A stretch of 37,093 nucleotides of DNA from Atopobiaceae bacterium (GTDB lineage Bacteria > Actinomycetota > Coriobacteriia > Coriobacteriales > Atopobiaceae). The stretch is from the NCBI GenBank assembly GCA_017941705.1, contig JAGAVX010000079.1, positions 1-37,093 of the forward strand. The letters run 5' to 3'. Below, one piece after another: positions 10,178-35,543 of the stretch. The stretch's first letter is position 1; each line of letters begins with the position of its first letter. The notes under the pieces are model-generated. The model searched no databases. It was not told where the DNA came from and worked only from the letters and a program-made list of their open reading frames with translations. Made by a program: the position numbers and the translations under genes.

Positions 10178-10213
10178 TCAGCAACAAGGGGGCAGGTCGT
10201 TTGACTCATCGCT

Positions 10214-10325
10214 TAAGTGCGAAAAAGTACTGGTTTCATTTCTTATGCTAGAATACATAACCGCAGGTAGATTGATCATTCAAAACCTTATGGACGACCG
10301 ATCTGCCCTCACTTTTTCGCACTTA
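10214..10325. repeat. CCGCAGGTAGA-core inverted-repeat element, copy A
   Basis: A perfect 15-base terminal inverted repeat (TAAGTGCGAAAAAGT at 10214-10228, complement at 10311-10325) encloses an AT-rich interior with CCGCAGGTAGA at 10261-10271. The core starts 32 bases from the left arm and ends 39 bases from the right arm. Copies B (18501-18607), C (17493-17621) and D (35336-35462) share the core and this spacing. The interior is far more AT-rich than the genes around it. No open frame is credible. Confidence 0.72.
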
Positions 10326-10358
10326 TTGAGGGCCGGGCGTGAGGAGCCACGAAGAGAA

Positions 10359-10410
10359 AAATGACCTGTCCCCTTGTCTCCCCCGCGGAAGACAAGGGGA
10401 CAGGTCATTT
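10359..10410 (-). terminator. GGGGAC-type palindrome acting as likely terminator of the aldo/keto reductase fusion gene
   Basis: Perfect 21-base arms flank a 10-base loop. The stem contains TGACCTGTCCCC and its complement. In minus-strand sense the hairpin is followed by a run of T-rich sequence (TTTTTCTCTT), fitting termination of the gene ending at 10428. A decayed half copy (GGGGGCAGGTCG) is visible at about 10173-10205. Confidence 0.7.
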
Positions 10411-17492: not shown

Positions 17493-17621
17493 TGGACATT
17501 GTTGGGGTTATGCGTGAATTTTGTAGCAGCCTTCGAGTATTACGCGGTTGCGACCTGCGGTTTTAATGTCCGCATACTCGAGAGGTTGGCGAAAATTCAC
17601 GCATAGCCCCAACAATGTCCA
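17493..17621. repeat. CCGCAGGT-core inverted-repeat element, copy C (reverse orientation)
   Basis: Thirty-base arms at 17493-17522 and 17592-17621 match with a single mismatch. The core CCGCAGGT is on the minus strand at 17553-17560. Inside, GAGTATTACGCGG and its near complement CCGCATACTCG form a second stem. Arm sequence is unrelated to copies A and B, yet the pairing, the core and about 30-base arm-to-core distances are kept. Confidence 0.7.
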
Positions 17622-18419: not shown

Positions 18420-18500
18420 CTATCAGGCAGTTGTCTCCCCGTATCTAGGTCGGATCTTCCATAAAGGGCTGTGCGTGCAATAACCCACCACTTGAGATTA

Positions 18501-18607
18501 AGTGCGAAAAACTGTTGATTTCACTATTTATCTATTAACACAAAACCGCAGGTAGAATGATTATTTAATTCTTTATGAGTAAACAAGACGCCAAACTTTT
18601 TCGCACT
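18501..18607. repeat. CCGCAGGTAGA-core inverted-repeat element, copy B
   Basis: Arms AGTGCGAAAAA (18501-18511) and its exact complement (18597-18607) flank an AT-rich interior with CCGCAGGTAGA at 18546-18556. The core lies 34 bases from the left arm and 40 from the right. It is clearly homologous to copy A, sharing arms, core, and the TTTCA, TTTAT and CTTTATG-like words between. Confidence 0.72.
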
Positions 18608-18683
18608 AAACGAAGGCGAGCGAAGTCGGAACAGCTCATCCCAAGCAGGCCCGCCAGCAGCCCTTAGCCGCAAACACTGACAA

Positions 18684-35253: not shown

Positions 35254-35543
35254 TTGGGGCTCTGGAACCCCAATGTGTCACCCTGGGGCTCCGAGGCCCC
35301 AGCATGATGTGGTTCTAAAACCCCACTGTGCCACTCTGGGGCTCTGGAACCCCGCGACCGAGAGGCTTTTTGGAAGCTCGTCGACAAATCCGCAGGTAGA
35401 TGAGGTGCCACCGATTCCATGGATTACTCCTGGCCCGAATAATGGGGCTTTGGAACCCCAATATGGAGCTTTGGGGCCTGTGACCCCACCACGGTGTGGC
35501 CCTAGAACCCCACTGAGGCGCATTGTGGCTCCGTAGCCCCAAT
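35254..35543. repeat. Cluster of eight GGGGCTCTGGAACCCC-like hairpin units
   Basis: Quasi-palindromic units of about 18-20 bases lie at about 35254-35273, 35283-35302, 35309-35326, 35336-35355, 35442-35462, 35471-35487, 35494-35513 and 35522-35543. Each has a GGGG-type 5' half, a short middle and a CCCC 3' half, diverged to different degrees. Spacing is irregular. They fill the gap between the frameshifted lipoprotein and the lysozyme gene, with the CCGCAGGTAGA element (copy D) in the middle. Confidence 0.7.
35336..35462. repeat. CCGCAGGTAGA-core element, copy D
   Basis: CCGCAGGTAGA at 35390-35400 is preceded by AAAT as in the other copies. It is flanked by GGGGCTCTGGAACCCC (ending 34 bases before) and GGGGCTTTGGAACCCC (starting 41 bases after), the same distances as in copies A and B. 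The arms pair only partly with each other, since each is itself quasi-palindromic. Confidence 0.5.

Follow-up and report, generated by a model that had tools for sequence, protein, structure and literature searches.

Tyrosine-recombinase cores are built of half-sites placed around a 7-base overlap, and in the attP and attB cores used by tyrosine integrases these half-sites are inverted. Integron attC sites are also tyrosine-recombinase substrates that keep their structure while their sequence varies, with conserved ends and a variable middle. Paired ends combined with an internal site-specific recombination site are described for IS101 and the Tn3-derived miniatures known as TIMEs (PMC4133298), and the repetitive extragenic palindromic (REP) sequences, including GTAG repeats and the REPINs (REP doublets forming hairpins) mobilised by RAYTs (REP-associated tyrosine transposases), are short extragenic palindromes that occur in large numbers and often in clusters. 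Here we analyse four intergenic elements, A to D, in a 37,093-nucleotide stretch of an Atopobiaceae bacterium genome (GenBank assembly GCA_017941705.1, contig JAGAVX010000079.1, positions 1 to 37,093; the window), which had been picked out by a reading of the sequence alone. We consider, with a probability of roughly 55%, that they represent a large class of short non-coding Coriobacteriales DNA palindromes with a tyrosine-recombinase-type centre, likely to be non-autonomous substrates on which a recombinase acts in trans. The elements are genuine and abundant and belong to the DNA level; we infer what undergoes recombination and by what route copies spread.

As in attP and attB, the elements have inverted half-sites around a 7-base overlap, and the same half-site, together with many of their overlaps, is found after one family of integrase genes (A1, below), but their site occurs in many copies and is set within long palindromes. 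Compared with IS101 and TIMEs, the ends of the elements are mutually unrelated and by eye not Tn3-like, and their site resembles that of a tyrosine rather than a serine recombinase. GTAG-REPs have a stem of 5-13 bp with GTAG outside it at one end, whereas the arms of the elements are ~14-50 bp, mostly 20-50, with the GTAG letters in the middle; the main text of the GTAG-REP paper compared makes no mention of Collinsella, Olsenella, Atopobium, Coriobacter or Actinobacteria. In contrast to attC, it is the middle that is conserved, and in the single array that was read from end to end (L389) we noticed no cassette genes separating the units. Literature searches, from which most subscription papers were excluded, returned no account of a tyrosine-recombinase prophage attB in Collinsella, of miniature inverted repeats in Coriobacteriia or of REPs in Coriobacteriales, while the titles listed for the core letters, and for miniature inverted-repeat transposable elements (MITEs) together with tyrosine recombinases and intergenic palindromes, concerned other subjects.

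The sequence-only reading had described a core common to all four elements, and this holds for the letters CCGCAGGT (A at 10261, B at 18546, D at 35390 and, on the minus strand, C at 17553-17560); the form CCGCAGGTAGA is exact in A, B and D only, C reading CCGCAGGTCGC, without AGA. Genome-wide the core is well above chance, as AAACCGCAGGTAGA with at most one mismatch occurs at 21 places in the window's own genome and the reversed control at 2. The 17-mer at the same tolerance was found at 56 places in 23 of 60 genomes (own plus 59 relatives), against one for the control, and a degenerate 17-mer, AAAASYGCWGGTAGATG, at 71 places in 46 of 246 genomes of the class, against two for reversed controls and mostly in families f1 and f10. 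An exact GTDB scan with the 18-mer AAAACCGCAGGTAGATGR gave 66 matches, 49 of them in Coriobacteriia records, and the 17 elsewhere are close to the calculated chance number (~15). Some core places fall within coding sequence by our reading (e.g. L068, L071, L074, L078 and L089).

The core is commonly embedded in a palindrome. At 34 of the 49 Coriobacteriia GTDB sites the surrounding inverted repeat beats all 40 shuffles, with 11 as the lowest of the 34 scores, and the top score at the 17 non-Coriobacteriia sites, which were scored without shuffles, is 9.5; the structured intergenic elements first seen in the window, which do form a family that conserves its core, belong to a large class of more than four copies. 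Core-pattern finds over all fetched loci with an arm score of at least 16 amounted to 119 elements, and six were dropped before families were counted, namely two in arrays of clustered regularly interspaced short palindromic repeats (CRISPR; L205, L252), one on a phage contig (L162), and L211, L328 and L437, which were not closely inspected. Arm comparison sorts the other 113 into 20 clusters at a clustering score reached by 0 of 1500 shuffled arm pairs, 19 being the fairer figure because L019 is element A caught by a second outer repeat. Having been collected by its core, this set is silent on how many palindromes are core-free. A core-independent search of the own genome with the arm AAGTGCGAAAAA alone returned A, B and five further elements, four of the five with GCAGGT or GCTGGT; within this arm family six of seven elements have one or other of these motifs at a constant offset (36-37 bases from the arm) and the seventh has CACAGGT. 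The same family was also found in another genus (L440), further arm families comprise that of C (L003, L037, L051) and a TTGGCAATC family (L001, L014, L054), and others occur in Collinsella, Olsenella and unnamed Coriobacteriales.

The core itself consists of a half-site, AAAACCGCAGG, a variable 7-base overlap mostly starting TAGA, and a degenerate inverted half-site. The perfect arrangement AAAACCGCAGG-N7-CCTGCGGTTTT occurs at nine places and is confined to Collinsella-type genomes, at least four places (L387, L389, L392, L393) representing a single orthologous locus, with N7 reading TAGAACG, TAGATGG, TAGAAAG or TAGAACC on the core strand; the 11-7-11 layout with up to four mismatches was present at 48 places. 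Palindrome-free cores adjoin integrase genes at L120 and L143 and, on viral contigs, at L159, L163 and L167, 27-91 bases after the stop codon. The L120 protein matches the Pfam family Phage_integrase below the cut-off and those of L163 and L143 have no Pfam match, their likeness to integrases resting on alignment and a model search. Searching with an alignment of these five integrase-like proteins (A1) gave 19 viral loci and matches, many of them weak, in 104 of 297 genomes of the order. We examined 47 integrase loci, made up of 17 of the 19 viral loci (those with sequence present after the stop) and 30 genome loci among the matches listed, and including the near-duplicates L372/L373, L378/L379, L461/L462 and L381/L445. 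A half-site with at most two mismatches lies within 260 bases of the integrase stop at 29 of the 47, against 2.66 expected from shuffles, or at 25 of 43 if four loci found through their core (L368, L370, L375, L434) are excluded.

Overlaps are also held in common. The 113 palindromes contain 26 different overlaps, and 14 of the 29 attachment-site (att) overlaps equal one of these (10 of 25 excluding the four core-found loci), the common variants being TAGATGG, TAGATGC, TAGATGA, TAGACGG, TAGACGA, TAGAACG, TAGATTG, TAGATAG and TCAGAGC; TAGATTG is the overlap both of element A and of prophage locus L439. The exact 17-mer was present in 12 viral contigs, which is about the chance number, three of them with an integrase relative beside it. 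Since the core also stands beside phage integrase genes, the elements are likely to be DNA recombination sites and not RNA elements, and the layout of the core, together with the phage att sites, gives good support to its assignment as a site of tyrosine-recombinase type.

Several further observations concern cores and recombinase genes. L002, considered as a phage integrase, is instead a chromosomal xer-like gene upstream of what we take to be a mraZ-like gene and a cell-division cluster, the family search having covered PF00589 only. In the own genome the first 50 residues of a Xer frame (LVPVPGARPRALVPVP; G000 contig C62, 13018-14148) match short frames at ~20 other listed places, which is probably a dispersed DNA repeat read as protein. 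Two cores stand head to head with 2 bases between them in L228 (G263:C12) and L238, and with a few in L210; L228 forms a 38-base palindrome, GCATCTACCTGCGGTTTTATAAAAGCGCAGGTAGATGC, and both L228 and L238 lie ~160-180 bases after a xer-like gene. Solitary cores at L092, L115 and L116 are accompanied by 11-base direct repeats of GATAACTagat type that by eye resemble integrase arm-binding sites. At L205 (G273:C1:1963723-1963739) a core, AAAAGCGCAGGTAGATGG, lies inside a CRISPR array spacer, so a mobile element with this site has probably been targeted; no protospacer was found in viral contigs (exact 30-mer) or phage records.

Within the window (Table 1), the inverted repeats said to surround the core are secure in A, where 15 of 15 bases pair, and in C (0 of 500 shuffles as good in each case), weaker in B (6 of 500) and at chance level in D, whose score of 7 was equalled or bettered in 164 of 500. 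Both A and C fold better than their own shuffles (z -8.8 and -11.0, respectively), and D folds no better (z 0.16). The arm sequence reported as common to A and B was recovered as 14-15 base arms of AAGTGCGAAAAA type, while the supposed GGGG/CCCC-type arms of D proved to be arrays of GGGGnnnnnnnnCCCC units on both sides, and D gives no support to the pairing claim. Relatives of D with the same design occur in its own genome at L006 and L018, and relatives of C, with arms changed on both sides, at L037 and L051. In A the right half-site is not clear, the site layout being that of phage att sites. A second palindromic repeat, of GACAAGGGGACAGGTCATT type, adjoins A at 10369-10410, and L025 has similar letters upstream of a further A-family copy.

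Table 1. Coordinates in the window of elements A to D, their predicted recombinase sites and the unit arrays around D.
Feature	Position	Strand	Details
Element A, palindromic, GTGCGAAAAAGT arm family	10213..10326	+	15-base arms 10214-10228/10311-10325, 100% complementary
Predicted recombinase site of A	10257..10274	+	half-site ATAACCGCAGG 10257-10267, overlap TAGATTG 10268-10274; from sequence
Element C, nested palindrome, GGGGnTATGCGTGAnTTTT arm family	17493..17621	-	48-base arms 17493-17540/17574-17621, 81% paired
Predicted recombinase site of C	17547..17564	-	half-site AAAACCGCAGG 17554-17564 (minus read), overlap TCGCAAC 17547-17553; from sequence
Element B, arm family common with A	18498..18610	+	14-base arms, 93% paired
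Predicted recombinase site of B	18542..18559	+	half-site AAAACCGCAGG 18542-18552, overlap TAGAATG 18553-18559; from sequence
GGGG...CCCC unit arrays either side of D's core	35255..35529	.	repeat families D1, D2
Element D, core flanked by GGGGnnnnnnnnCCCC-unit arrays	35337..35460	+	single arm pair not significant
Predicted recombinase site of D	35386..35403	+	half-site AAATCCGCAGG 35386-35396, overlap TAGATGA 35397-35403; from sequence

That pairing is kept while arm sequence changes, as had been proposed from the window, was borne out in the C family, where one arm pair reads A-T, G-C and T-A across three own-genome copies, and in G060, a metagenome-assembled genome of 1.5 Mb (Spi319_bin26), which provides the many copies with covarying stems that the sequence-only reading had suggested looking for. 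Among 24 distinct aligned copies from G060, 92.7% of arm cells were paired compared with 88.5% after shuffling, 53 cells had changed on both sides compared with 20.4 (a count that 0 of 500 shuffles reached), and a one-base slide of the arms reduced pairing to ~51%. Mean r2 was 0.339 at paired arm sites and 0.03-0.10 at informative sites outside the arm pairs (1/n = 0.04), with two core pairs at 0.52; because sites outside the arm pairs are near linkage equilibrium, kinship does not explain the covariation. A linkage test for crossover at the core found unpaired sites near equilibrium everywhere.

The mismatches indicate the level at which pairing is maintained. Over the 119 elements, among which related copies are not independent, mismatched arm cells comprised 155 G.U, 152 A.C and 343 others, against 4155 Watson-Crick cells; a one-strand RNA stem should prefer G.U, and with G.U and A.C equal the pairing therefore looks like DNA. 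The arms look like a DNA palindrome kept by DNA-level selection or by template switching, a process able both to generate and to mend perfect stems and to introduce multibase compensatory changes (PMC8794818, PMC8604942). At one Collinsella element with 13 orthologues, variable columns numbered 2 of 58 in the arms, 36 of 162 in the flank and 48 of 330 further left, which suggests that the arms are used at the site and are not merely passive copies.

A structured RNA, either a small RNA or an RNA element with the core in its loop, would account for the strong folding of A and C, for the compensatory arm changes, and for a promoter-like TATAAA just before the left arm in 21 of 26 G060 copies (loci L168-L196), 20 of the 21 having TTGAC or TTGAT upstream. 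Set against it are the equal G.U and A.C counts, the folding of D, and Rfam, which had no match in the window and only two tRNAs in 20 loci; on the mismatch counts and the Rfam result we rejected RNA as the principal explanation, and hold it to be distinctly improbable. Of the earlier alternative between a structured RNA and a DNA hairpin, DNA-level pairing is favoured and the step to RNA is not supported. An RNA motif, 'Collinsella-1', is named in PMC2864571. Bidirectional terminators were also rejected: nested hairpins with A and T tracts are seen in some Collinsella copies (L141, L389), yet most families are without the right half, and flanking gene directions are mixed by simple open reading frame calling in an AT-rich genome. 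Ordinary MITEs of several families, with arms that would be ends for different DDE transposases in trans and a core that would be an internal resolution site on the precedent of IS101, are unlikely in our judgement, although the elements are short, non-coding and multicopy, have terminal inverted repeats and are dispersed at unrelated sites. In G060, where 40 of the 122 first-look candidates were scored, at least 40 matches are near full-length and have flanks dissimilar beyond ~50 bases, and a 155-base family recurs at many sites across Collinsella-type genomes, where two or three elements whose arm families alternate are joined into arrays by the linker CAAAATGATCCGTTTTCCTCC. Such dispersal also counts in favour of recombination substrates. 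Locus L401 is without exactly one array unit, a loss for which the homologous linkers account. Target duplication, which had been put forward as a sign of a miniature transposon, was examined across 112 elements: direct repeats at the ends were not in excess at 5 bases (1 observed, 2.8 expected) or 6 (1 against 1.0), a further difference from IS101 and TIMEs, and MITEs with target duplications were rejected, but at 4 bases there was an excess (22 against 9.8) and at 8 bases there was 1 against 0.1. A full-length partner with matching ends was absent from the nine F1 arm matches and the scored G060 matches, both in draft genomes. Carriage of the elements by phages was rejected on three exact element patterns, each with 0 matches in viral contigs. 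In L319/L335 (G181:C65) a Collinsella-type element is cut within its core, after AAAACCG, by foreign sequence reaching the contig end.

The elements might instead be resident sites of a host DNA-binding protein, whether a regulator or a nucleoid protein, that phages have merely adopted for attachment. A dimeric operator could likewise have a palindromic 11-7-11 arrangement, solitary cores are intergenic, and arm conservation is seen across 13 species at one fixed locus. The site with at most four mismatches also lies after 9 of 30 xerD-like genes; five of these nine belong to the window's genus and have the site in one orientation. The overlap, however, is variable and asymmetric (TAGANNN) and matches that of about half the att sites, as counted above, as would be expected of a crossover and not of an operator spacer, and we think this explanation rather improbable. 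That a short motif recurs by chance amid repeats with no kinship would fit D taken alone, but is scarcely credible and is refuted for the class as a whole, because the counts far exceed reversed controls and shuffles.

A number of results weigh against the view of the elements as substrates for a recombinase in trans. Most copies, A and B among them, have a weak right half-site; 15 of the 49 Coriobacteriia GTDB core sites have no significant inverted repeat, a half-site is missing at 18 of the 47 integrases, and the palindromes have no counterpart of 15 of the 29 att overlaps. Neither a prophage seated in a palindromic element nor a clean empty site was found. Twelve arm probes gave no match to 57 integrase loci other than a 12-base 'spi' probe in L336, a further contrast with attP and attB, and on this ground arms acting as phage arm-type sites were rejected. 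The G231 prophage sits at the 3' end of a gene that we take to be rpoD, and its locus had no half-site with at most one mismatch within 300 bases in 29 other genomes of the genus. At the Collinsella locus with 13 orthologues, 4 of 29 core columns vary, about the rate of coding or spacer columns. The covariation could come from template switching alone, and the TATAAA before the G060 copies could mean transcription. Finally, the A1 alignment finds no match in the window's genome, where 6 of 13 candidates were scored, and G060, a draft, has a single PF00589 match, a Xer-like gene with a core-like site ~250 bases downstream, and we therefore name no enzyme.

As recombination substrates, the elements would work through the half-site AAAACCGCAGG, which would be bound by a phage-type or resident tyrosine recombinase, with a resident Xer protein or the integrases of visiting phages as possible actors. 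Strand exchange would take place in the overlap, and copies with equal overlaps may recombine among themselves or with a phage or mobile element that enters the cell. The arms may matter as a DNA hairpin or cruciform that holds the site, or may stay perfect through template switching in replication. More tentatively, and in our estimate less likely than not, crossover sites borne on hairpins and interchangeable with one another may form a network in Coriobacteriales chromosomes, numbering tens and in some genomes perhaps a hundred, in which one recombinase specificity would serve ~20 unrelated palindrome families as well as incoming phages; such a network would be gene-free yet integron-like, and would offer harmless landing sites to phages and mobile elements and allow the chromosome intergenic rearrangement.

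The presence of one short recombinase-type site within ~20 unrelated palindrome families is not explained by MITEs, REPs or phage attachment sites alone. In these elements arms covary near linkage equilibrium with no wobble excess, which separates DNA-level from RNA-level covariation, and covariation by itself is therefore no proof of RNA. If the site is active, the genomes of Collinsella, Olsenella and their relatives would offer numerous points at which phage integration and rearrangement can be predicted, and genetics in these bacteria, which are difficult to engineer, would gain useful landing sites.
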